Shown: piece after piece, positions 23,686 to 64,000 of the stretch
Layout: every line of letters begins with the position of its first letter
Position numbering within the stretch: the stretch's first letter is position 1
Assembly (NCBI GenBank): GCA_021234155.1
Contig: JAJEKV010000030.1
Coordinates: forward strand, 9,158,390-9,222,389
DNA: 64,000 bases
Direction of reading: 5' to 3'
DNA from: Isoetes taiwanensis
Taxonomy: Eukaryota > Streptophyta > Lycopodiopsida > Isoetales > Isoetaceae
Position numbers and translations under genes: made by a program
Notes under the pieces: model-generated
Databases searched by the model: none
Told to the model about the DNA's origin: nothing
What the model saw: only the letters and a program-made list of their open reading frames with translations

Positions 23686-24117
23686 ATTTCTCTTCTCCAA
23701 CCCACTGCAAAAGAACTTTTATGCTAAGTCAATAGATCTCATTCTGGACATCCTTGAGATGTTTGTGATAGAAATGTATGTTGATTGCGGTTCACATACT
23801 ATGAGGCAAGTCAAGACATGCCCATTTTGACCCCATATTCTTTGCAAGAAGGGTCTAGTGTGCCCAACATAGAATATTCACCATAAACTACTGCAATCTA
23901 ATAGCCTTGAAAAAATTTAGAACACGCGAAATGATAATACACTCCACAAATAATGGAATATTACAAACTGCCTATGTAGAAGATGAGACAAATAGTAAGT
24001 AGATTTCAAAGTTAGTTCTGATTTGTGTACATTCTCATATACAACTATGGGCCCAAGATGTTGTTTGTACATGACCACTTATACCGACAAATTAAGGGTC
24101 TCAAACTACAAGGGATC

Positions 24118-24632
24118 AGCGTGATAATCGACATTTGTCCCGCCGATTATGTCGACCTAAACAGTCGATAATCGACGGTCAACGTCGATCGTCTACGTTG
24201 ACCAGTCAAACGTCGACCGGTGACCATTGAACGTCGATCATCGACGCTCAGTTGGAGTGACGTGTCGCCTTTGACCTCGTGGCATGCCTACCTGGTGGCT
24301 GACTACACGCGTGGCCCAGGGCGTGGTATGGAGCGTCGATCATCGACGTTGTGTCGATGATGACATGGACGGCTGGCCCGATGCCTTTGGTCGGCCGTGG
24401 TCCCCGGTGGGCGTGGCGGCGTGGCGTGGAATGTCGATCATCGGCGTTGTGTCAATGATGACATGGGCATTCTGGCCGATGCCTACGGTCCCTAGCGCCC
24501 GCGCGTGGGCGTTGGCGTGGGCGTGGAAACGTCGATGATCGACGTTGTGTCGAAGATGACGGAATCGTGGGTCGGGCCGAGGCGACGTCGCCCGTGGCGT
24601 GGCATGCCTACGTGGTGTTGAACGCCGATGAT
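24118..24632. promoter_or_regulatory. Subterminal palindromic array (copy 1)
   Basis: Contains repeated CGTCGAT-N-ATCGACG palindromes (for example near 24232, 24335 and 24530) in GC-rich imperfect tandem repeats. Subterminal repeats of this type are the usual binding sites of CACTA accessory proteins. Copy 2 (51908-52452) is cleaner. Confidence 0.65.
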
Positions 24633-25317
24633 CGACGATGTTTTGGCGGAACCCGAGAAGGTATTTATCTTCATTTCATTGTTGTTGTAGTCGATCTCTT
24701 GAGAGTTCTTGGCGCCGTGGGCGTGTTTTCTCTTCATAAGGTAAGATCTTGCATTAACACTAAGTTTATCATGTTCTTACCATTAATTCCTCATAGATAT
24801 TGATTAAAGCAAAAGTTCTTTTAAAAATGTTTTACAAAAAGTGTGGGGTAGGTTGATCCAGATATCGGTCGGCTCCATCCCGAATGGAGAGGACTATAGT
24901 ATCTGCCCAGCCTACCTCAATCATATTGTCTATAAATTTTAAAAAGTGTGGGGTAACTTGATCAAGGTATCGGGTCGGCTCCATCCAGAATGGAGAGGGA
25001 CTACGGTATCGTTCAGGCCTACCTCAATCATATTGTCTATAAATATTACAAATTGTATGAAGGGTAGCATGATCAAGGTATCGGGTGGACTCCATCTCGA
25101 ATGGAGAGGACTAGGTGTATCGGGTTCAGCCCCACAATTAGTGGTTGCTAAACATTACAATATGGGTTTAGGGTTGCGGATGAAGGTAATCGGGTCGGCT
25201 CCATCGAATGGAGAGGACTAGATGTATCGAAGTTCGGGGCCCTCAATCAAATTAGATCTAAAGTCACATTAATACATTAAATTAGTTTTATTAACATTTT
25301 TGCTTGTAGTAAACAAC

Positions 25318-26639
25318 ATGGACAAACGTCGAGCCCGACCATGAACGAAAATGCAACAAAAAGCCACAAGATTGTTAAATGGCGATCGGCGCAAAGATGT
25401 TACCCAACAATTGCCACAAATAGTCCACTTAGACCAAATGTCCGAGTCTTCCCCGCAAACTCCCTTTAGTGGCATGCACTGAAATGAAGGCACGACGATG
25501 TACTAGAAACATGTTTTCAATGATTGCCAACTTTGCATCCTAATAAACTTTTTCGGTTGTACTTGATGAGGCGGCTTTATTGCAATTGCGTGATGTGCAA
25601 AGGACAAATAAAACGGATGAGAAAGACTATCATCGATCACGCTTGATAAATACGGTGAATGGTCGATAAATCCACTTCGCTTCTCGATGCACATGTGCCG
25701 GATATTCCAACGAGGTACGGCTCAACTACTCTCACGCACTTGAATCGACATCTCAACTTATTTTACTTGCATTTTCTTAGGAAGAAACTGAGAATGAAGT
25801 GAGCTCAAGCAATATGTAGATTTTGGGGCCATGTTGTCCTTGGAAGCGTGATGATATTGACACCATAAATGCTTTCATAGAGAACCCTAAGAAAAAGAAA
25901 GCCATCAACTTCGCAAAGAGTATCCCATTATTGATAGAACTCGCGGCGATGGGGCGTAGCCATGATTCTAGGAAATAACAACGTTCACCACAATTGAATG
26001 TACTAGATCCCGTGGAAGAAAATAGCATTCCACAGAACTAGTCCATTTGCTAAAAGCCTTTACGCACGGTGATCGTAAAAATTCCGGTTATATGGCCTAG
26101 AGGTAAGCCAATTATTTATGGGGAGCCATTTACATATTGGGGTAGGCAAGATTTGATTAAAACTAGTCGTCCCCGATGCTGGTCAGGATTATATATTATG
26201 ACAAATATAAAAGTCAAAGATGGCACGCAGTGTTCCCTTTGATGCCATATGTAGGTCCCTGAATACAACTTCCTGAGGCTTGGCATAAATTGAGTAAGCA
26301 CCTGGGGCATGATGCTCATCTCATGGCCTAAATTCTAATGCACTAAGAATAGCGAGACCGATAATGTGACAAAGATTTGAAATACATTGATGGTCGCCCT
26401 CAATTACATGGAAACCTTTACGCTTTTATTAACAAATGGCTCTATCGAATCCGTAAGCTACCAATTGTGATTTCGCCGAGGCAAAAAAGGACCAAGAAGA
26501 TTTCTTTAGGCGGAAAATTGAAGGGAGATATATTATGGTAGATGCTATAAAGAGTCTTCGTGTTGGTGATGAATTGTTCATTCAAGATGAATACGGTAGA
26601 CCAATATCGAGGTCTTTTGATGATGTACTCGAATTATAA
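25318..26639 (+). pseudogene. SET-domain-like gene of CACTA, copy 1
   Basis: Same exon order as 53146-54441: ATG at 25318, the Cys motif CNCVMCKGQ-like exon near 25555, the third exon from 25781. Nearly every exon has small indels relative to copy 2, mostly at CAG/CTG sites. The reading frame toward the C-terminus extends in copy 1 to a TAA at 26637-26639 (DDVLEL), which may be the true end of the protein; copy 2 stops earlier because of one extra base. Confidence 0.6.
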
Positions 26640-26859
26640 TTAATATAAGTTGTGTTGTCCTTTGTGGGAGTCTTACCATGTATTTAATTATTATTTTGTG
26701 GAATGAAATTATATGATTATTATCGTCAATAGGTGGCTTGCTTAAGGCGGAAATTTATATTTTTATATTACAACATGTTTAAGAACCCGGCCAAGCCACG
26801 CCTCAATGCATGTAACATATATTTTTTTGTATCCGCAATCAGGCCGGGCGAAAGTGGAT

Positions 26860-29800
26860 ATGAGACCACATCCAAGCCGCACGTAATTGGCATACATCAA
26901 GAGTCATCATGCTAGCGTAAATAGAATACATCGAGCAATATGGTACAAACATCGGCACAACATATGATGAAGAGTACAACATCGAAGAGGACGAAAGCAC
27001 AACGATGAAGACGGCGAAAGCAGCACAACGATGAAGACGACGCCTACCACATGGAGGTTGAGGAACCCATGGCGACATGTTAGATCGTTCGACCCGATCT
27101 TCGATTAAGCGACCTCGACGAAGAAGCAAATACCCTATATTGACCCGGTCATGAAGATTTATTGGAGGAGGCACAAAGTATTATATGTAGGGGCAACCGT
27201 ATCTAGATTGGCAACATCTTTATTGATATTAAACCTTCAAGCCAAATTCAAATGGAGCAACGCCGGTACACGGCTTTGTTACAGCGGGTACACTTGAAAT
27301 CACCAAGTTAATTGAATTCGTGATTGAATGAATGTATCCGCAAAACAAAAGACTTCATGCGAGTTATTACAAGAGAAAATACTCCCACAAGGGAACACTA
27401 TACCTAGAGACGCGATGAAATAAAAAACATATTGGCAAGTAGTGGTTTGGGATACCATAGGATTCATGCTTGTCCAAATGATGGCATAGTATATTATCCA
27501 AATGACATCTACAAGGACACAAAACGCCCTAAATGTGGTGCCGCTAGGTACAATGTAGACGCTGTAAGGGAAAGACCGGCCCCAATAAAGGTGGTTCGCT
27601 ACTTTCCATTGATCCCGCGATAAGCATAAAGCTATTATTTCGATGTGAGTCTCTAGCTTCGGCCATGGGTTGGTGTGTCGCTATCGCGCCGACAATATGC
27701 TTCGTGGTGGTTAGTGACCGCAAGCAATGGAAGCATATTGATGAAACATGGCCGAATTTGGAAGTGAGTCACTTAAATCTCGATTAGGTCCGGCAACGGA
27801 TGGCGTTAATCCTTATGGACGCCTACCTACCGATGGTCAACGCGGGCCGCTGGTGTTAATCAACTACACCTACCCCCATGGTTGCTAATGAAGACTAGCC
27901 ATTTAATGGTACCGGGACCTAAAAACCGATACACTAGATCCATACCCAAAAAAATAGTTATTGATGAACTTTTGGTAACGGTGGAGTGTAGGTATTGAAG
28001 TTTATGATGTCTCAAGAGAACTCCATGAACAAAGATTTACCTTTGAGAGCAATCCCCGATGTGGACAACGAGTTTATTGGCCCGGTTTGTATGAAATCTC
28101 CGGACTCCAAGTGTCCGATATGCCGCGATGCCACTTGTGTGGGTTTGAACAATTGAATTCACGGCCAATCGGCATTGCACAAGAATGTCTATGCAAACTT
28201 CGTGAGATTCCTACCACTTGAAAATCGACTTGATACGTGAGGCCCAAGAGACAAACATTGTAATCAAGAACCTCCCAAAAGGTTGACAATGAAAGATTGG
28301 GGTAACCAATGGGATGCCGCAAACAAAGGAAAAAAGTCATGAGAAGGACAAACAAGTCGGGAATGAAGTGGAAATCATCCTTCTTCCTTCTACCATATTG
28401 ACAATTGAAGATCCATCATCTTCTTGATCCTATGCATATCTTCAAAAAATGTTTTGTCGCCCATTTGGAGGCACGCCACAGACGAAGGGACACGATGCAG
28501 CAGCGGGAGGATCTACAAGAAGCCGGATCGAAGGCAAAAGCATGGCTAAATGTAGAAGAAGGAACAAGGCATTGTGTCGATTGATCGTGCCTAGAAAAGG
28601 TATGAAGCCCGCTCGAGATGCGATCAAGGCTATAAAGACTCCGACGGGATATATGCATTCGCTATGAATCGCTTGAATCGGAACTAAGGGGAGTTAACAG
28701 TGGTTGAAATCCCACGATTGGCATAAGATGTTGCGTGTATGCTTCGCTCATTATCGTTAGTTTACATCAGATGTTACAAGTACTCAACGCAACATAATTG
28801 CATCTCGACATGTGCGCTTGTTATGCCTATTGTTCTAAGAGGTCGCTCTGTTGACGGTCCACTACATGCAATATGTCTCCCATCGTAGTTTTCTAGGTTC
28901 GCATTGCATTTATTTGACTTGACTTTATTTGACTTTGATTTTGAACTCTCACAATTTGTTTTTCTTTCCTATTGACATGTAGATGGATTACAAAAAAGAG
29001 ATTCCAACAATAGAAAATTTAGACATGCTAACTAAGGTGGTTGAAGCATGTTGTATGCTCGAAAGAATTCCAACGAAGTTTCTTAGACATACAAACTCAC
29101 CATTAGTTCACTTAGTGGACGAAGTGGAGCTTGCGCACAACCAATCCTAGGTGGATGTTTTTCATAGAACGATTTTTAAAGGTCCTCAAGGACTTTGTTT
29201 TAAGGCAAGGCCCGGAGGATGTGCATGGTAAGGTTGGTTAGCCCGAGTCATTATTCTATGTCACCGAAGTTCTTAGCCGATCTACACCCCAATGCTCCAC
29301 GATTATGGACCGATGAAGACAACCCGACTATAATTGGAGAAGTTCCCGGCTGAAGACCGCGAAGCAAATTTTTCACAATAGAGGAACAAGTTTAAAGTCA
29401 ATAAGTTTTCATCTACAACTCCACTCACATGGAGAAATGGATAAAAAGGCAATGGCGAAGCAAAAACAAAAAGAGATGATGAGAGAAGACGCTATCGACA
29501 AAAGTATCGCAAAACAACCATTTTAGCCGATCTAGAGGCTATGCCAAGTGATATAAACAAAATTTGGTTGTCCCAACAACTAGAGGCGGCAAGGAACGCC
29601 GCTAATTAACATGTTTCTAGTGAAGAATTGGCATATACTAAAGGCGTGCGCTTGTGTAAGTGCAACTTTATATATAGTTATCATTTCGTTTGTTATTTTT
29701 TGAACGCTTTTTTTTCGCTATAGTATAATTCATATGCATCAATGTGGTCTTCGCGGGTACTCCTCGACGGAAAAGCACGGATGAAGGAAAACGCGACTTA

Positions 29801-51474: not shown

Positions 51475-51907
51475 GAACATTTCTCTTCTCCAACCCACTG
51501 CAAAAGAACTTTTATGCTAAGTCGAATAGATCTCAATTCTGGACATCCTTGAGATGCTGTGATAGAAATGTATGTTGATTGCAGTTCACATACTATGAGG
51601 CAAGTCAAGACATGCCTGTTTGACCCCATATTCTTTGCAAGAAGGGTCTAGTGTGCCCAACATAGAATATTCACCATAAACTACTGCAATCTAATAGCCT
51701 TGAAAAAATTTAGAACACGCGAAATGATAATACACTCCACAAATAATGGAATATTACAAACTGCCTATGTAGAAGATGAGACAAATAGTAAGTAGATTTC
51801 AAAGTTAGTTACAGTTTGTGTACATTCTCATATACAACTATGGGCCCAAGATGTTGTTTGTACATGACCACTTATACTGACAAATTAAGGGTCTCAAACT
51901 ACAAGGG

Positions 51908-52452
51908 ATCAACGTAGATAATCGACATTTGTCCGTCGATTATCGACCTAAACAGGTCGATAATCGACGGTCAACGTCGATCGTCTACGTTGACCAGTCA
52001 AACGTCGACCGGTGACCATTGAACGTCGATCATCGACGCTCAGTTGGAGTGACGTGTCGCCTTTGACCTCGTGGCATGCCTACCTGGTCGCCCGACGGCC
52101 GCGTGGCTGTGCGCGTGGCATGGAACGTCGATCATCGACGTTGTGTCGATGATGACATGGCATGCGTGGCCTGGCCGATGCCTACGTGGTCGCCTACGTG
52201 GTCCCCCAGCGCCAGCGTGGCTGTGTGCGTGGCGTGGAATGTCGATCATCGACGTTGTGTCAATGATGACATGGCATGCGTGGCCTGGCTGATGCCTACG
52301 TGGTCCCCTAGCGCCCGGTGTGGTCGCGGCGTGGCGTGGAACGTCGATGATCGACGTTGTGTCGAGATGACGTGGAATGCGTGGTCTGGCCGAGGCCGAC
52401 GTGGTCGCCCGCGTGGCATGCCTACGTGGTGTTGAACGTCGATGATCGACGA
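51908..52452. promoter_or_regulatory. Subterminal palindrome array upstream of the SET-like gene
   Basis: At least five copies of the near-perfect palindrome (A)ACGTCGAT-N-ATCGACG, at about 52022, 52124, 52240, 52341 and 52434, plus related GTCGAT(A/T)ATCGAC sites near 51915-51970. From 52065 to 52440 they sit in about three imperfect GC-rich tandem units of roughly 110 bp that also contain GCATGC and CCTACGTGGTC. In characterised CACTA elements, accessory proteins of the TNPA type bind such subterminal repeats; that role is inferred here. Confidence 0.75.
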
Positions 52453-52456
52453 TGTT

Positions 52457-52558: not shown

Positions 52559-53137
52559 GTAAGATCTTGCATTAACACTAAGTTTATCATGTTCTTACCA
52601 TTAATTCCTCATAGATATTGATTAAAGCAAAAAGTTCTTTAAAAAATGTTTTACAAAAGTGTGGGGTAGGTTGATCCGGATATCGGGTCGGCTCCATCCC
52701 GAATGGAGAGGACTATAGTATCGGGTTCGGGCCTACCTCAATCATATTGTCTATAAATTTTAAAAAGTGTGGGGTAACTTGATCAAGGTATCTTTGGTCT
52801 GGCTCCATCCCGAATGGAGAGGACTACGTGTATCGGGTTCAGGCCTACCTCAATCATATTGTCTATAAATATTACAAATTGTATGAAGGGTAGCATGATC
52901 AAGGTACTGGTCGACTCCATCTCGAATGGAGAGGACTAGGTGTATCGGGTTCAGGCCCCACAATTAGTGGTTGCTAAACATTACAATATGGGTTTAGGGT
53001 TGCGTGATGAAGGTACTGGTCGGCTCCATCCTGAATGGAGAGGACTAGATGTATCGAGTTCAGGGGCCCTCAATCAAATTAGATCTAAAGTCACATTAAT
53101 ACATTAAATTAGTTTTATTAACATTTTTTGCTTGTAG
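52559..53137 (+). other. 5'-UTR intron with four hairpin repeats
   Basis: Donor AAG|GTAAGATC at 52559, acceptor TTGCTTGTAG ending at 53137, nine bases before the start codon of the SET-like gene. The intron is built from four tandem units of about 110 bp. Each contains a 6-bp stem, CTCCAT/ATGGAG, with a 5-nt loop CYYGA (stems at 52692-52708, 52803-52819, 52915-52931, 53024-53040), followed by GTATCGGGTTC-like sequence. In the first unit the flanks GGGGTAGG and CCTACCTC could close the structure. Confidence 0.7.
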
Positions 53138-53145
53138 TAAACAAC

Positions 53146-54441
53146 ATGGACAAACGTCAGGCCGACCATGAACGTAAAATGCAACAAAAAGCCACAAGAT
53201 TGTTAAATGGCGATCGGCGCAAAGATGTTACTCCAACAATTGCCACAAATAGTCCACTTAGACCCAGCGGTCCGAGTCTTCCCCGCAGCCTTAGTGGCAT
53301 GCACGAAATGAAGGCCGCCGACGTATGTACTAGAAACATGTTTTCAATGATTGCCAACTTTGCATCCTAATAAACTTTTTTTCAGTTGTACTTGACAGAG
53401 CGGCTTTATTGCAATTGCGCGATGTGCAAAGGACAAATAAAACGGATGAGAAAGACTATCATCGATCACGTTGATAAATACGGTGAATGGTCGATAAATC
53501 CACTGCTCTCAGATGCACATGTCGGATATTCCAACGAGGTACGCTCAACTACTCTCACGTACTTGAATCGACATCTCAACTTATTTTACTTGCATTTTCT
53601 TAGGAAGAAACTGAGAATGAAGTGAGCTCGAAGCAATATGTAGATTTTGGGGCCATGTTGTCCTTGGAAGCAGATGATATTGACACCATAAATGCTTTCA
53701 TAGAGAACCCGGCAAAAAGAAAGCCATCAACTTCTGCAAAGAGTATCCCATTACGTGATAGAACTCGGCGTGCGATGGCCGTAGCCATGATTCTAGGAAA
53801 TAACAACGTTCACCACAATTGGAATGTACTAGATCCTGTGGAAGAAAATAGCATTCCACAGGAACTAGTCCATTTGCTAAAGCCTTTTACAGACAGTGAT
53901 CGTAAAAAATTCGGTATATGGCCTAGAGGTAAGCCAATTATTTATGGGGAGCCATTTACATATTGGGGTAGGCAGTACTTGATTAAAACTAGTCGAGGTC
54001 CCCGATGCTGGTGCAGGATTATATATTATGACAAATATAAAAGTCAAAGATGGCACGAGTGTTCCTTTGATGCCATATGTAGGTCCTGAATACAACTCGG
54101 AGGCTTGGCATAAATTGAGTAAGCACCAGTGGCGCATGCTCATCTATGGCCTAAATTCTAATGCACGAAGAATAGCCAGACCCGATAACAGCAAAGATTT
54201 GAAATACATTGATGGTCGTCCTCAATTACATGGAAACCTTGCTGCTTTTATTAACAGCTCTATCGAGAATCCAGAAGCTACCAATTGTGATTTCGTCGAG
54301 GCAAAAAAGGACCAAGAAGATTTCTTTAGGCGGAAAATTGAAGGGAGATATATTATGGTAGATGCTATAAAGAGTCTTCGTGTTGGTGATGAATTGTTCA
54401 TTCAGTATGAATACGGTAGACCAATATCAGAGGTCTTTTGA
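53146..54441 (+). CDS. SET-domain-like protein encoded in the CACTA element
   Basis: Exons 53146-53322, 53386-53538 and 53604-54441, with GT/AG introns of 63 and 65 bp and kept phase. The first exon (59 codons) is basic. Exon 2 has CNCAMCKGQ and a Val/Asp-His segment resembling the zinc-like N-terminus of CACTA transposases. Exon 3 ends in a SET C-terminal signature: YIDGRPQLHGNLAAFINSS (compare the family motif NxxxFINHS) and, about 40 residues on, IKSLRVGDELFIQYEYG (compare GEELTxDYxY). The GxG-containing N-terminal half of a SET domain is not clear, so catalysis is unproven. One frameshift near 54088 splits exon 3; it coincides with AGGTCCTGAA, where copy 1 has AGGTCCCTGAA, so a base error at CTG is likely. 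The gene precedes TNP2 by about 240 bp on the same strand and shares its promoter region. Confidence 0.65.
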
Positions 54442-54683
54442 TGATGTACTCGAATTATAATTAATATAAGTTGTGTTGTCCTTTGTGGGAGTCTTACCAT
54501 GTATTTAATTATTATTTTGTGGAATGAAATTATATGATTATTATCGTCAATAGGTGGCTTGCTTAAGACGTGGAAATTTATATTTCTTATATTACAACAT
54601 GTTTAAGAACTGACCAAGCCACGCTCTCAATGCATGTAACATATATTTTTTTTGTATCTGGCAATCAGGCTGGGCGAGTGGAT

Positions 54684-57600
54684 ATGAGACCACATCCAAG
54701 CGTACGTAATTGGCGACATCAAGAGTCATTGCGGCTAGCAGAAATAGAATACATCGAGCAATATGGTACAAACATCGGCACAACATATGATGAAGAGTAC
54801 AACATCGAAGAGGACGAGCACAACGATGAAGACGACGAGCACAACGATGAAGACGACGTCGGCCACATGGAGGTTGAGGAACCCATGGCCGACATGTTAG
54901 ATGCGTTCGACCCGATCTTCGACAACGACCTCGACGAAGAAGCAAATACTCCTATTGACGGTCATGAAGATTTATTGGAGGAGGCGCACAAAGTATTATA
55001 TGTAGGGGCAACCGTATCTAGATTGGCAACATCTTTATTGATATTAAACCTTCAAGCCAAATTCAAATGGAGCAACGCCAGCGTTACGGCTTTGTTACAG
55101 TAAGTACACTTGAAATCACCAAGTTAATTGAATTCGTGATTGAATGAATGTATCCGTAAACAAAGACTTCATGCAGGTTATTACAAGAGAAAATACTCCC
55201 ACAAGGGAACACTATACCTAGGAGACGCGATGAAATAAAAAACATATTGGCAAGTAGTGGTTTGGGATACCATAGGATTCATGCTTGTCCAAATGATGGC
55301 ATAGTATATTATCCAAATGACATCTACAAGGACACAAAAACGTGCCCTAAATGTGGTGCTGCTAGGTACAATGCAGACGCCAAGGGAAAGACCGTCCCAA
55401 TAAAGGTGGTTCGCTACTTTCCATTGATCCCGCGCATAAGCGCATAAAGCTATTATTTCGATGTGAGTCTCTAGCTTCGCTCATGGGTTGGTGTGCTGCT
55501 AATGCGTCAAGTGACAATATGCTTCGTGTGGTTAGTGACTGCAAGCAATGGAAGCATATTGATGAAACATGGCCAGAATTTGGAAGTGAGTCACGAAATC
55601 TCAGATTAGGTCTGGCAACGGATGGCGTTAATCCTTATGGACGCCAGTCGGCCGCATGGTCAACGTGGCCAGTGGTGTTAATCAACTACAATCTACCCCC
55701 ATGGTTGCTAATGAAGACTAGCCATTTAATGGTACCAGGACCTAAAAAACCAGATACACTAGATCCATACCTCAAAATAGTTATTGATGAACTTTTGGTA
55801 CTGTGGAGTGTAGGTATTGAAGTTTATGATGTCTCAAGAGAACTCCATGCGGAACAAAGATTTACCTTGAGAGCAATCCTGATGTGGACAACGAGCGATT
55901 GGCCCGGTTTGTATGAAATCTCCGGACTCCAAGTGTCTGGATATGCTGCATGCCACTTGTGTGGGTTTGAACAATTGAATTCACGCCGGTCAACGGCATT
56001 GCACAAGAATGTCTATGCAAACTTCAGGAGATTCCTACCACTTGAAAATCGACTTCGATACGTAGGCCCAAGAGACAAACATTGCACTGAAGAACCTCCC
56101 AAAAGGTTGACAATGAAAGATTGGGGTAACCAATGGGATGCCGCAAAACAAAGAAAAAAAAAAAGTCATGAGAAGGACAAACAAGTCGAGGGGGAATGAA
56201 GTGGAAATCATCCTTCTTCCTTCTACCATATTGGACAATTGAAGATCCATCATCTTCTTGATCCTATGCATATCTTCAAAAATGTTTTGTCGTCCATTTG
56301 GAGGCACGCCACGGGGCGTAAGGACACGATCTGGCTTGGGGAGGATCTACACAAAGCTGGATGAAGGCTAAAAGCATGGCTAAATGTAGAAGAAGGAACA
56401 AGGCCCGTGTCGATTGGATCGTGCCTAGAAAAGGTATGAAGCCCGCTCGAGATGCGATCAAGGCTATAAAGACTCGGCGGGATATATGCATTCGATGCGA
56501 ATTTTTTTTTCGAACGAAGGGGAGTTAACAGGGTTGAAATCCCACGATTGGCATAAGATGTTGCAGGTATGCTTCGTTCATTATCGTTAGTTTACATTGT
56601 ATGTTACAAGTACTTCGAACGCAACATAATTGCATTCGACATGTGCAGTTTGTTATGCCTATTGTTCTAAGAGGTCGTCTCGCTGACGGTCCACTACATG
56701 CAATATGTCTCCTATCAGAGTTTTCTAGGTTCGTACAGATTTATTTGACTTGACTTTATTTGACTTGATTTTGAACTCTCACAATTTGTTTTTCTTTCCT
56801 ATTGACATGTAGATGGATTACAAAAAAAGAGATTCCAACAATAGAAAATGCAGACATGCGAACTAAGGTGGTTGAAGCATGTTGTATGCTCGAGAAAGAA
56901 TTCCCAACGAGTTTCTTAGACATACAAACTCACCATTAGTTCACTTAGTGGACGAAGTGGAGCTTGCAGGCACAACCAATCCTAGGTGGATGTTTTTCAT
57001 AGAACGATTTTTAAAGGTCCTCAAGGACTTTGTGCGCCAGAAGGCAAGGCCCGAGGGATGCATGGCCGAAGGTTGGTTAGCCCGAGAGTCATTATTCTAT
57101 GTCACCGAGTTCTTAGCCGATCTACACCCCAATGCTCCACGATTATGGACCGATGAAGACAACCCGACTATAATTGGAGAAGTTCGAAGGAAGACCGCAA
57201 AAGCAAATTTTTTCACAATAGAGGAACAAGTTTAAAGTCAATAAGTTTCTCATCTACAACTCCACTCACATGGAGAAATGGATAAAAAGGTACGATGAAG
57301 CAAAAACAAAAAGAGATGATGAGAGAAGACGCTAGACAACCATTTCCAGTCGATCTAGAGGCTATGCCAAGTGATATAAACAAAATTTGGTTGTCCCAAC
57401 AACTAGAGGCGGCAAGGGAACGCGGCGAACATGTTTCTAGTGAAGAATTGGCATATACTAAAGGCGTGTCTGCTTGTGTAAGTGCAACTTTATATATAGT
57501 TATCATTTTCGTTTGTTATTTTGAACGCTTTGTTTTCTTTCGTTATAGTATAATTCATATGCATCAATGTGGTCTTCTGGTGCTCACTTCCGACGGAAAA

Positions 57601-59420: not shown

Positions 59421-60582
59421 TATACACCATTTATGTTGTCTTTATCTAAGCCATGCAACAGAATAATATTTTGGCGTTCCACCCTTATCTCCATCTTCAA
59501 TACTTGACATACTTGGCTTTGACTGTCATCATCTAGGCAAGAATCTGCTCCATCCTTTTCTTTCTCTACTCTTTGGTTTTGATTGTCATCAACTATCTCA
59601 GCATTATCTAAGCCATGAGGCATTATCTAAGCCATGAGTTAAATTCGAGCTCATAACCCTACCCCAAGAGACGGACCCCATCGAACGCAACCAATTCGTC
59701 GATATGTCCGTGAGATTGCACATTCCAATTGGGATTTTAAATTTCTATATTGATAATCCTTATTGACCGATTTGAGCATAGGATCTTCAGATTTTGCAAT
59801 GCTATGTAGATGAGTCTGCTTAATCATATGCAAGAGGAGATGCTGCTATTCCCACTTCAATCCAAGACCAGAGCCTATCTAACAATAACATCCTTAGATT
59901 GAATATGAGAATATAAGTATAAGAAATGCTAGAACAAAAGATAACTGATTATAAAGATCCAAAACTTGAACAAAATACTCAAATATTCTCAAATACTTAT
60001 CCAATGTCACTCGAGTACACTCGAATACTTATCTAAATAAACTTGAATACACTATGATTAGAGTACAAATATCACGCAAAAATGTCGAGATCGTGAGGTT
60101 GCCTCAAAGGTGGAAGAGGAACAGCCTCACACTCAATGTCGTCAGCACATTCAATAATGCCTTCAAAGAAATTCAGCTCCTGCAAATAATTTGCCAACTT
60201 CTCTCCAAATACTAACGGTGCAGTATTATCAGGCAAGCTATTGTATTCATCTCTCTTCTTCTTCAACAGCTCTAGCTGGTCTTCTATTTCCTCTAATGCT
60301 TCATCTTCGCAACTGCATAGTTCCTGGAGGATTTCGTGACGCTGCTGGCACACGATCAACCATACTCTGAAACGTCTTTCCAATGGCGTTATTCGTATAG
60401 TAGGGCGAGGCATCCTGCATCCTCACATTAGAAAGAGCTACAAATAAGGGGCTTAAGAACGATAATGAACAAGGAGTGATTTGGAGAAAGTAAATACAAA
60501 ATGTAACCTTAGATCGCTCCAAAAACGCTTTGGGATGCTTGCTAGAACTAGATGTGAAGCGGCCAAGCTCTTGTTGCCTCAA
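59400..60582 (-). CDS. Minus-strand gene with acidic/coiled-coil segments, unknown
   Basis: Not recognised. The best coding signal is 60072-60413: a Glu/Leu/Lys coiled-coil stretch (EALEEIEDQLELLKKKRDEY) followed by LANYLQELNFFEGIIE and a Pro-rich end. An upstream Ser/Lys-rich segment (60500-60582) and a downstream acidic segment (59540-59623, LDNAEIVDDNQNQRVEKEKD) may be further exons, but the splice pattern is not resolved. It diverges from the plus-strand third gene across a palindrome-bearing promoter. A DNA-binding accessory protein of the TNPA type would fit the position; that is only inference. Confidence 0.4.
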
Positions 60583-60689
60583 CCAAGAATATTTGAAGCG
60601 GCTAGGGTTTTGGATGTCAGGGTTTTTGCTTCAATTCGAACCTTTGTAGGTACAATTAACTTTTTTTTTTTTTTTATATATGTTTTGCC

Positions 60690-60775
60690 AACGTCGATAT
60701 TGACCGTTTTGTCGGTATATCCGTCGAGCATCGACGTTTATACTGAACGTCGATTATCGACGTCGCGCTGTAATA
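60690..60775. promoter_or_regulatory. Divergent promoter with the same palindromes
   Basis: Three sites related to the subterminal array: CAACGTCGATATTGACCG (60690), CCGTCGAGCATCGACG (60721) and GAACGTCGATTATCGACGTC (60747). They lie between the minus-strand gene and the third plus-strand gene. The array upstream of the SET-like gene uses the same core, suggesting one element-encoded or host factor controls all units. Confidence 0.6.
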
Positions 60776-60906
60776 TTTCCGGAACAGGGCGGAAAACCCG
60801 TGACCTATTTCGAGCAAGCAAGAAACTTGGAGGAGCGTTTATTCCAGCGATTTTTGGCGCCCATCGGTCTTGAAGCCCATTTCCTTTGCCAAGCAAGCTC
60901 CAGAAG

Positions 60907-61796
60907 GTATGTGCTTGGATCAACCATCTCTTTTTTTGAATCCATGCTTGTTTTTTTCCAAGTTTTAGGGCTTTATGTTCTTGTTGTTTGTTCTTCCCAT
61001 TCTCATCAATCTTGGCCTCTTTTAGTTAATTCTTCCATCCCCTTTCCATTTTGATCCCTTCCAATGTTTCTATCCTCATATTTGCCATGCCCTTTTTTAT
61101 TCTTGCTTCTTTGCTCTTCCAAATTCTTGCTTCTTCTTCCTTCTTCCAAATCCCTCCCTCTTCTATATTCTTTTCCGAATTCTTACATCCCTTTCTCTCA
61201 TCATCTCTTCCTCTATTTCTTCTTCTTCTATTTCTTCTTCATCATCCTCCTCCACTTTTTCTTCTTCTTCCTCCTCCTCCTCCATTCTTCTTCTTCGAAT
61301 TCTTTTTCATCATTCGTTTTTCCTCTTCAATTCTTCCTCTATTCTTTTCTTCGTCGATGAAGGACGGCTTCCTTTGTTTTTCTTTTTTTCTTTTTTTAAT
61401 GCAAGGTCGATGAACGACCTTGCAATGTTTTGTTTCTTACTTAGTTTAATATTTTTTCTAACCATTGATGTCTTGTTTTGCATGCATAACTCCTAACAAA
61501 ATGCGTTGCTTTTGCGAACGACAACGAACACCTTGTACTTATTCCAAGTAAGAATTTATTTTTAATACGTTTAAGTTTAATGCTTTGTTTAGGTTTAAAA
61601 AAACTTGGGGAGACTTGGGCAAGGGGCATGGTCGACTCCACCTTGAGTGGAGGGGACTAAGTGCTTCGGGTCCAAGCTCACCTACTACTCTTGTAAATTT
61701 ATTTGCTAATGTATTTAGGTTAATCCACCTAATCCTTTTTTTTTTCTTTGTATTTTTTTATGCATTGTCGATAAATTAGTTTAATTTGGTTTGTAG
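60907..61796 (+). other. 5'-UTR intron of the third gene, with pyrimidine tract and hairpin
   Basis: Donor CAGAAG|GTATGTG at 60907; acceptor TTTGGTTTGTAG ending at 61796, two bases before the ATG. It includes a long CT-rich tract (about 61130-61400) and one hairpin unit at 61636-61652: CTCCAC-CTTGA-GTGGAG, flanked by GGGGAGACTTGGGC and GTCCAAGCTCACC, which can pair with each other. Confidence 0.65.
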
Positions 61797-61798
61797 GT

Positions 61799-63369
61799 AT
61801 GGCCCCAAATGTGAAGACACAAATGCTTAGTGAGATTAGATGTGTGCTCATAAATGAGATATGTGCCAACGAAAGTCCCGACAGTGGAGATAAAACGGTC
61901 AACGCCTCGACCATTTTGTAAGGCATGTCCAAAGGAAGTGTCAAAATGAGTTAGCATCAAAATGGCTGGGCCGAGGAGGAAATGTTGACATCTCTTCCGA
62001 ACACACATGTAAAGTCAATGCTTGGAAACCCCATGGTCGAACCGAGACATGTTTGAACCATTCAAAGGCAGCTTCAAAGTCCCAATGCAAAGGCTCGTGG
62101 TCGAGGAATGGGTAGCTAGTTGGAATTCCTCCAAAAAGTTAATGAGATCACAAGAATGTCATTAAGGATCTCAATGCACGCCAGCTTGGAGATAATAAGA
62201 AACGCCTTGCATCAAGGGGAAGCTCTAGTGGAGCAGGGCCTAGCATGCCCCACTTTTCTTTGGAAAATCACATGAAGACATCAATCTTCGTTGAACCCAT
62301 ACCCATAGAGGCCGAGAGGTGATGCACCGATTGAAGAGAGATCAACTCATAGCACATATCAAATCAAGATCATTGGAACACAACACTTCCAAGATGATGA
62401 GTTCTATCTTCGGATGGGTTTATAAAGGGGAGATAGGAGCATGTCATATGAGAAGGCCCAAAAAAATATATACGCTTCAAGAGTCCGTGATCCCTGACTG
62501 GCTACACCCATTGGACTTGCTTATGAAGTTGCTAGCTCTAGCTGGGGGTACCATAGGGCCAATGGTGATTCTACCATTTATGAATGGAGAAACACTTGCA
62601 CACTTGTTTGACTATTTACCTCGGGACCTTTCACGTTATAGGAGATGGTCAAACGCAATAGCCCACATTCTACAAAAAGGCCTCCCAAACACATATCCGC
62701 TGAAGTTAGGGCTCGAATGAGAGTTGTATATCGGTATGTTCCGTAGATAGCTCTTGCCCCAGCGTAAGGTGTCGGCCGAGATCCACAAGGGCCACTTTAC
62801 TCACACAAAGCTCAATTGCAAAAGAGTCAAATTACATTTTGACGACAAGTACACAAATGTTTGGGTGGCAATTGGTGATTGGGAGGAAGCATTACATTAT
62901 TATTGCAAAGAACGTCGTCCCATGTTGAAGAGCCAATACTCACTTTCGGATGGACAAGTTTAAATATCCTTGGTACGAGAAAAGTGTCTTTGAGAAATCG
63001 AAGGATGATGATCGCGGTTTGGGGGACGAAATTCATGATGTCTATGCATTGGGATACATCTATGACATGCTCCTTGATTTTGTGCAAGCTATGCGACGAA
63101 TGGAGTGGTTTAACAATGTCGACAATGGCCAATACATCAATCCAACACATATGTACCAACGACGTCTTGACAAGTTGGAGGAGCAAAAATTAAGAATGAT
63201 AGCTCATCACGCGCACGTGTTCACACAACGATGCAAAGCTTCTGAAGTTGTTGAAGCCTTACAAAGTGTTGGAATATCTTCCACCATGGTTGTGAGACAA
63301 AGACGACATATGAAGTGCATGGATGCCTTGGAGATGTCAAAGTTGTTGTTTGCAGCACTTAAAGAATGA
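61799..63369 (+). CDS. Third CACTA plus-strand gene, unknown function
   Basis: Starts MAPNVKTQMLSEIRCVLINE right after the 5'-UTR intron. Good coding stretches follow at 62319-62720 (LKRDQLIAHIKSRSLEHN, LFDYLPRDLSRYRRWSNAI) and 62950-63369 (DEIHDVYALGYIYDMLLDF, MYQRRLDKLEEQKLRMIAHH), the last ending naturally with LLFAALKE and a stop. Frameshifts or unresolved introns lie at about 61915-62320 and 62720-62950. The C-terminal part is helical and charged. I do not recognise a domain. Its position suggests an element accessory protein or a captured host gene. Confidence 0.5.
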
Positions 63370-64000
63370 ATTAGACATTGTATACCTTGTCTAGAACGTT
63401 GTGTAACTAGTAAATATTTAAAGACATTTGTAAGTCGAGCTATGTTAATATCGTCAAACTTTTATTCTGTCAATATAATAAAACAAAGCTTGTTAAATGT
63501 GCAATGAAGTTTCTATGTAATTAAGGTTTCTTAATTTCTTAATATGTCATTCAACACACTCAATATTAATAACTTAGGGGTACTTGTGCATGTCCAGCAA
63601 TCATGAGCTTTAGTCGCGTGACCTACTATGGGTTGCCAACCCTGTTACTTTGGTGGATTGGCAACATTCTTGACGACAACAAACCCGCGTTCGCCCACGT
63701 TTGGGGAAGTACTTGGTTCGGACGTAGTCCGCCACCGCCACCTAAACCATTTTGCGGATTTGGTATGGATTATTATCTAGGTTAACATTTAGGTTAGTAG
63801 TTTATTTCTAATATATTCTAATAAATATTTTTCTAAATGTAGGGTGCATATCCACCATTGTTCTTTTCTTCGTGTGCTTGGGTTGCACCCTTATATTTGG
63901 GGCCTGTTTGGGTACCAACCCCAAACGCAACCGCAGCCCAAGAAGAATAAGAAGAGGCGAGGGCTCATCTCGAGGACGAGGATCCCACGATCTCGAGTAT
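63370..64000. other. 3' flank of the third CACTA gene
   Basis: AT-rich sequence with AATATAATAAAACAAAG near 63471 as possible polyadenylation context. A more GC-rich stretch from about 63640 includes CCGCCACCGCCACC. The last 120 bp (AAGAAGAATAAGAAGAGGCG) match copy 1 at 36470-36535 up to the window end. No terminal repeat of the element was found. Confidence 0.45.

Follow-up and report, generated by a model that had tools for sequence, protein, structure and literature searches.

Structure of the locus

The window, by which we mean the whole 64,000-nucleotide stretch of Isoetes taiwanensis DNA analysed here, holds on its forward strand a transposon copy in which a SET-domain-like coding region lies just upstream of a TNP2-type transposase. 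The gene opens with exon 1 (53146 to 53322; 177 nt, or 59 codons), which carries a start codon and ends in a phase-0 donor, GTATGT, and continues with exon 2 (53386 to 53538; 153 nt between an acceptor ..TTTCAG and a donor GTACGC, both in phase 0), whose CxCxxC..H pattern resembles the TAD domain (PF13963). The SET exon follows (53604 to 54441), with a phase-0 acceptor at 53604, a match to the Pfam SET profile PF00856 and a stop codon of its own. At a distance of 227 bp from that stop, and on the same strand, come the first TNP2-side exon (54669 to 55099; acceptor cag, phase 0), which starts RPHPSV..., includes an acidic stretch and was given its end by eye from a GTAAGT; the TNP2 catalytic region (55177 to 56199, its start set by eye), with a Transposase_21 match at 55513 to 56124; and the DUF4218 region of the transposase (56876 to 57235). 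An earlier note on this DNA had described a SET-like gene spliced from three in-phase exons, close upstream of TNP2 on the same strand. The position of TNP2 agrees with that description, and the splicing agrees in part: phase 0 holds for exon 1, exon 2 and the acceptor of exon 3, but exon 3 shifts frame inside the SET domain.

This frame switch, from the open reading frame at 53604 to 54089 to the one at 53983 to 54441, leaves the window copy unable to make the whole protein; the exon as such codes for about 120 residues followed by the SET domain and the stop. TNP2 is likewise split over two frames (55160 to 55447 versus 55366 to 56199, with more breaks downstream), and the window copy of the element is dead. 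The acceptor of exon 3 is common to the relatives, as TAG stands immediately 5' of the exon start in 22 of 32 SET copies; the matches in most of the remaining copies start within the exon, and the copy L030 has TAA at the acceptor.

A second copy, which the earlier note did not mention, occupies positions 24104 to 28969 of the forward strand, with its 5' terminus at 24104, a broken SET region (25781 to 26606) and a broken TNP2 (27364 to 28969). It belongs to a tandem duplication of about 26 to 27 kb (10074 to 36536 versus 37473 to 64000, at 87 to 96% identity) that takes in as much of the SET-bearing element as is visible, the gene being broken in both copies. Independent insertion of the two copies was considered and rejected, since both sit in that one duplication.

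The element begins with a degenerate CACTA terminus (AACTACAAGGG; 51897 to 51907, forward strand), and homology to the relative L016 begins 6 to 8 bases earlier (L016:389, corresponding approximately to window position 51889). Relatives have the canonical 5' terminus CACTACAAGGG (L016:395, L037:455), and that of the copies placed below in subfamily C reads CACTACTAGAG (L013, L014, L033, L034 and L035). Behind the terminus, again on the forward strand, lie subterminal repeats made of CGTCGATNATCGACG-like units (51913 to 52453), an array also present in L016 and L037, and then a leader with tandem repeats of about 110 bp (GGCTCCATCCCGAATGGAGAGGACTA; 52649 to 53080). The subterminal sites that had been remarked on before are thus found, as repeated CGTCGATNATCGACG sites in the 5' part of the element. 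The 3' end was not located: the stretches read held no convincing pair of terminal inverted repeats, homology reaches the end of the window, and the scan for inverted ends of the type CACT...AGTG yielded a single weak pair whose flanks do not match. When the window is compared with locus C1052 (L047, L049), homology extends 12 kb beyond the 5' terminus, up to the window end, and further CGTCGATNATCGACG-like sites were seen at 60722 to 60762 (within 60685 to 64000) and at L049:3715-3981. On account of this long homology and these distal sites, the element may measure about 16 kb and include extra genes of unassigned kind. Pfam scans gave no significant match for the open reading frames at 62295 to 62720 and 62929 to 63369, or for a 116-residue frame on the minus strand of the 3' part (60072 to 60422; best E 0.075).

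Family membership and copy number

Transposase_21 (PF02992) is matched with E-values of 2.3e-56 in the window and 2.7e-56 in the relative L009, and DUF4218 (PF13960) lies 3' of it in both (6.4e-18 and 7.5e-16, respectively). Matches to TAD reach 5.8e-6 in L012 (26.8 bits, against a cut-off of 27.7), 1.1e-4 in L042 and an E-value of 0.027 in the window; DUF4216 is weak, with 24.1 bits at best against a cut-off of 30.6. A typical CACTA transposase, as described in the available part of PMC8978399, is a single open reading frame with the order TAD-Transposase_21-DUF4218-DUF4216, TAD being N-terminal. As judged from the TNP2-type transposase, the CACTA terminus and the subterminal repeats, the family is one of CACTA (En/Spm) DNA transposons.

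Genome-wide, at least 150 related SET places were found (151 matches with the window's own included, the best 150 of 1620 candidates having been scored), together with at least 141 TNP2 matches (140 scored of 2680 candidates). Among the matches listed, TNP2 follows within 8 kb on the same strand at at least 59 of the 150 SET places, 56 of these 59 pairs being within 1.4 kb of each other; it was found downstream on the opposite strand at none of the 150 and upstream at one. The SET-plus-TNP2 arrangement, for which the earlier note had proposed a search in other elements, therefore recurs in the genome. Seen from the other side, a listed SET match lies upstream at at least 61 of 141 TNP2 places, and of the 80 remaining TNP2 places 10 were fetched, seven of which had remnants of SET upstream and three none in 4.1 kb. 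PF00856 itself gave at least 72 genomic matches (150 scored of 521 candidates), of which at least 19 come from this transposon family. At two places, L010 and L018, the SET exon is open and no TNP2 match was found over the 8.0 and 3.6 kb fetched, respectively; these are possibly SET-only derivatives.

Relationship to SET proteins

The window frame at 53983 to 54438 reaches 25.9 bits against PF00856, above the cut-off of 22.4, and two relatives with open exons also exceed this cut-off (L009 with 29.6 bits, L012 with 24.4). Twenty of the 25 open SET exons entered the alignment and the PF00856 scan, and all 20 match the profile at E<=0.01. By these scores the SET assignment, which had been made from motifs, is not due to chance. 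A profile of the family (n=20) was compared by hhalign with host proteins from 14 SET loci, six of which entered one comparison and five the other (L055, L058 and L063 were excluded). Against the six host nuclear SET proteins it gave 89.5% probability (E 2e-6) in a match of 55 columns that covers the C-terminal SET motifs only; three TNP2 sequences, used as a negative control, gave 0.6%. The five host proteins of a second type gave 0.5%, and the resemblance is therefore confined to one kind of SET protein. We take the second group to be SMYD-like, one of the five having been checked with Pfam, and the first presumably includes SUVH-like (H3K9-type) and ATX-like proteins. Among solved structures, a sequence search with the L009 protein returned no match at E<=1, and a search with the family profile returned no SET protein and five unrelated chains at E 0.11 to 0.75. 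Single-sequence AlphaFold, run on the window frame only, gave a pLDDT of 36.

Subfamilies and selection

By sequence and C-terminal tail, the open SET exons form three groups, A (the window type), B and C, and in all of them the SET exon occupies the identical site, between the TAD exon and the TNP2 exons. With one copy taken per subfamily, amino-acid identities are 47 (A-B), 47 (A-C) and 61 (B-C) for SET and 53, 55 and 73 for TNP2, and the branching order is alike for the two regions, with B and C as sisters.

Rates of substitution were estimated for 25 of the 32 SET copies (seven were excluded for stops, short reach or a length outside 268 to 280 residues); these copies were selected for open SET frames, a selection that alone does not lower dN/dS. 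Within groups, the median dN/dS is 0.335 for A (66 pairs, range 0.224 to 1.289), 0.778 for B (36 pairs) and 0.531 for C (6 pairs), values as high as those of B and C being expected for young, mostly neutral copies. Between B and C the median falls at 0.224 (36 pairs; median dS 1.42), and in the A-B and A-C comparisons synonymous sites are saturated. Named pairs gave 0.245 to 0.275 for SET in three comparisons between A lineages and 0.216 for B-C, and for TNP2 0.213 (A-A) and 0.094 (B-C). In three pairs divided by region, the SET part alone had values of 0.20 to 0.30. These values, which bear out the comparison of copies advised by the earlier note, indicate that the SET exon is under purifying selection across three diverged subfamilies, with dN/dS of about 0.2 to 0.3 between lineages; SET is therefore constrained, but more loosely than TNP2.

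CACTA elements capture pieces of host genes, and a fragment of a host SET gene could have been caught by chance in the manner of Pack-CACTA elements and carried along as a passenger. A precedent for additional domains is the peptidase domain discussed for CACTA elements in the accessible text of PMC8978399. Against a passenger speak the same insertion site in three subfamilies so diverged that their synonymous sites are nearly or fully saturated, the shared splice phase, the open frames of the 25 analysed copies and the dN/dS between lineages, and we regard this origin as highly improbable.

Motifs and catalysis

GxG and the final Tyr are SET motifs of known role, and pre-SET and post-SET cysteine clusters are typical of SUVH enzymes. 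Both C-terminal motifs pointed out in the earlier note, NLAAFINSS and GDELFIQYEYG, are present in the window copy. Across the 20 aligned copies, the GxG region (A135, G136, G138 and L139) is invariant, as are E263, L264, F265, I266 and Y268 of the C-terminal ELFIxYxY, which contains the final Tyr of an ELxxDY-type motif; the Tyr of the YxG motif is also invariant and the Asn of the NHS motif nearly so. The NHS motif (Asn-His-Ser(-Cys), the SAM/knot motif) reads N-S-S, with Ser in place of His in 20 of 20 copies (FINSS). No post-SET cysteine (zinc) cluster follows the SET domain, and neither a pre-SET nor a post-SET cluster of the kind found in SUVH enzymes was seen in the element's SET region. 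Given the missing histidine and the missing post-SET cysteines, catalysis may be weak or absent.

The domain could thus be catalytically dead, and the protein joining TAD to SET a regulator that methylates nothing and acts by binding element DNA or partners, either in the manner of TnpA or as a competitor of the transposase. The replaced histidine and the lack of zinc cysteines would fit such a regulator, and the available part of PMC12886896 reports that SET-24, a catalytically inactive SET protein, regulates chromatin. The invariant GxG, YxG-motif Tyr and final Tyr, the nearly invariant Asn and the constraint on the SET part in the three divided pairs argue the other way, and we consider a dead domain rather unlikely.

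Splice layout and a SET-less lineage

Phase-0 junctions were computed for the window and for L042; those of other copies were judged by eye. In all copies of A, B and C that were read, the TNP2-side exon follows an acceptor in phase 0, and its starts are related (RPHPSV in A, HPDPLVL in B, RPDPRVLN in C). In subfamily C, an in-frame TAG abuts the conserved TNP2-exon start in five of six copies (L036, the sixth, does not align in this region), and the first ATG lies about 20 codons downstream. Since this acceptor TAG would end translation in frame and the ATG lies so far on, the conserved TNP2 start of these copies must be spliced on. In subfamily B an in-frame ATG stands 14 codons 5' of the TNP2 exon, and in subfamily A an ATG falls at codon 6 of that exon, so that TNP2 may have a separate start in both.

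L042 (on C942), which has no SET exon, joins exon 1 (111 nt), a TAD exon (135 nt) and, across a 71-bp intron, the TNP2 exon into one open frame. A 231-bp probe for this TAD-TNP2 junction gave 41 genome matches: 16 span all of it (82 to 100% identity), one covers positions 1 to 200, 16 end at about 118 to 136, and eight cover the far side only. The point at which the shortened matches stop is the position of the SET exon in the group C copies read. L042 and 15 other places thus make up a SET-less sister lineage in which the TAD exon stands directly before TNP2, some of these places being perhaps local duplicates. Because all three subfamilies have SET in this position, we interpret its absence as a loss, and from the 16 junction places it follows that the SET exon is dispensable and not essential in cis.

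An independent TNP2 gene downstream of a SET gene that has a promoter of its own could account for the stop that closes the SET exon in all three groups and for the early or upstream ATGs of subfamilies A and B. This arrangement is hard to reconcile with the stop right before the TNP2-exon start in the five C copies, with the in-phase joining of TAD to TNP2 in L042, or with the location of TAD, whose match lies 5' of SET and for which a Pfam scan of the window's first TNP2-side exon gave none; we think it unlikely. A splice donor within the SET exon might have fused SET to TNP2; we considered this and rejected it, the exon ends of A, B and C sharing no common donor when compared by eye. From sequence comparison, the SET region is probably part of the transposase gene and no separate neighbouring gene, so that the earlier picture of a SET gene next to the transposase holds for the position of SET beside TNP2 but probably not for its independence. 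Ending in a stop of its own in A, B and C alike, the SET exon acts in our model as an alternative terminal exon: it is likely that shared 5' exons would be spliced either to TNP2 or to SET, the latter giving a TAD-SET protein.

A possible mechanism

The explanation of the whole that we favour, with modest confidence, is that of a CACTA transposase gene holding a selected SET exon, which would yield either TAD-TNP2 or TAD-SET, the latter acting on the chromatin of the element. The promoter and the 5' exons would be common to both products, and the choice of splicing would decide between the transposase, when TNP2 is joined, and the TAD-SET protein, when SET is joined. TAD would then guide TAD-SET to the element DNA that the transposase also binds (the binding of DNA by TAD being an assumption), and SET would methylate nearby histones, or another lysine target, at the element. 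This targeting and methylation, as predicted from the domains, is plausible but falls somewhat short of probable in our estimation. The broader proposition, that a single transposon gene gives two proteins with a common DNA-targeting N-terminus, one of which rewrites chromatin on the element's own copies, we put forward more tentatively. If it is true, splicing would set a balance between movement and the control of chromatin state, and SET-less relatives could depend on TAD-SET supplied by other copies.

As to the direction of the effect, our guess is that TAD-SET would keep the element transcribable, an anti-silencing role like that of other proteins in VANDAL and Spm elements. The main alternative is self-restraint, in which TAD-SET would repress its own element, or target it to heterochromatin, and so limit harm to the host. 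Activating and repressive marks are not distinguished by the sequence, and the host proteins used for comparison, by our presumed labels, include both the SUVH-like (H3K9-type) and the ATX-like kind, which leaves room for repression. Selfish elements, however, usually profit from escaping silencing, the cysteine clusters typical of SUVH enzymes were not seen, and the transposon-encoded chromatin factors VANC and TnpA act as anti-silencers (PMC10398659, available part); self-restraint therefore seems improbable to us.

Comparison with known systems

Plants silence transposons by histone and DNA methylation. In maize En/Spm, TnpA and TnpD arise by alternative splicing of one transcript; to our knowledge TnpA is not a SET protein, and we know of no methyltransferase domain in VANC. 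A search of the open-access literature, covering titles and the beginnings of abstracts, found no report of a SET gene in a CACTA element. SET histone methyltransferase genes are reported in Phytophthora HarbingerS and some MuDR transposons (Kojima & Jurka, Repbase Reports 2014, as cited in the accessible text of PMC12730594), and these resemble the Isoetes element in that a DNA transposon lineage acquired a SET gene and spread with it. They differ in transposase superfamily and in host kingdom, and the Isoetes SET sits 3' of the TAD exon within the transposase gene of a CACTA element; nor is the Isoetes element a HarbingerS, as its transposase is TNP2/Transposase_21 and not Harbinger.

Among plant CACTA elements, those with a TAD-Transposase_21-DUF4218-DUF4216 ORF1 share the transposase domains and the CACTA terminus of the Isoetes element, and some add Transposase_24 and Peptidase_C48 (PMC8978399, in the part available). 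The Isoetes element differs from them in that the added domain is SET, on an exon with its own stop between TAD and Transposase_21. Fungal DNA transposons, EnSpm-type included, carry TET/JBP, according to the accessible part of PMC12730594, and there too a CACTA-type element carries an enzyme for an epigenetic mark; by that account TET/JBP acts on DNA cytosine in fungal hosts, whereas SET would act on proteins and the host here is a plant.

The closest functional parallels are transposon proteins that relieve silencing, VANC of Arabidopsis VANDAL and TnpA of maize En/Spm, the activation by TnpA being tied to demethylation (PMC10398659, available part). With En/Spm the Isoetes element would share the production of two proteins from a CACTA gene, one of which affects epigenetic state (an effect that for Isoetes is presumed), and its products, unlike TnpA and TnpD, would have an N-terminal TAD in common. 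VANDAL belongs to a superfamily other than CACTA, and its likeness to the Isoetes element lies in a factor encoded beside the transposase and in noncoding tandem repeats as possible targets, as far as the same excerpt of PMC10398659 describes them. A selected SET domain, probably sharing the targeting module of the transposase, would offer a handle on how a transposon might edit its own chromatin, and the presence of SET-bearing and SET-less sisters within a single genome provides a natural comparison for SET function. Such a system would give an old lineage of vascular plants its counterpart of VANC and TnpA.
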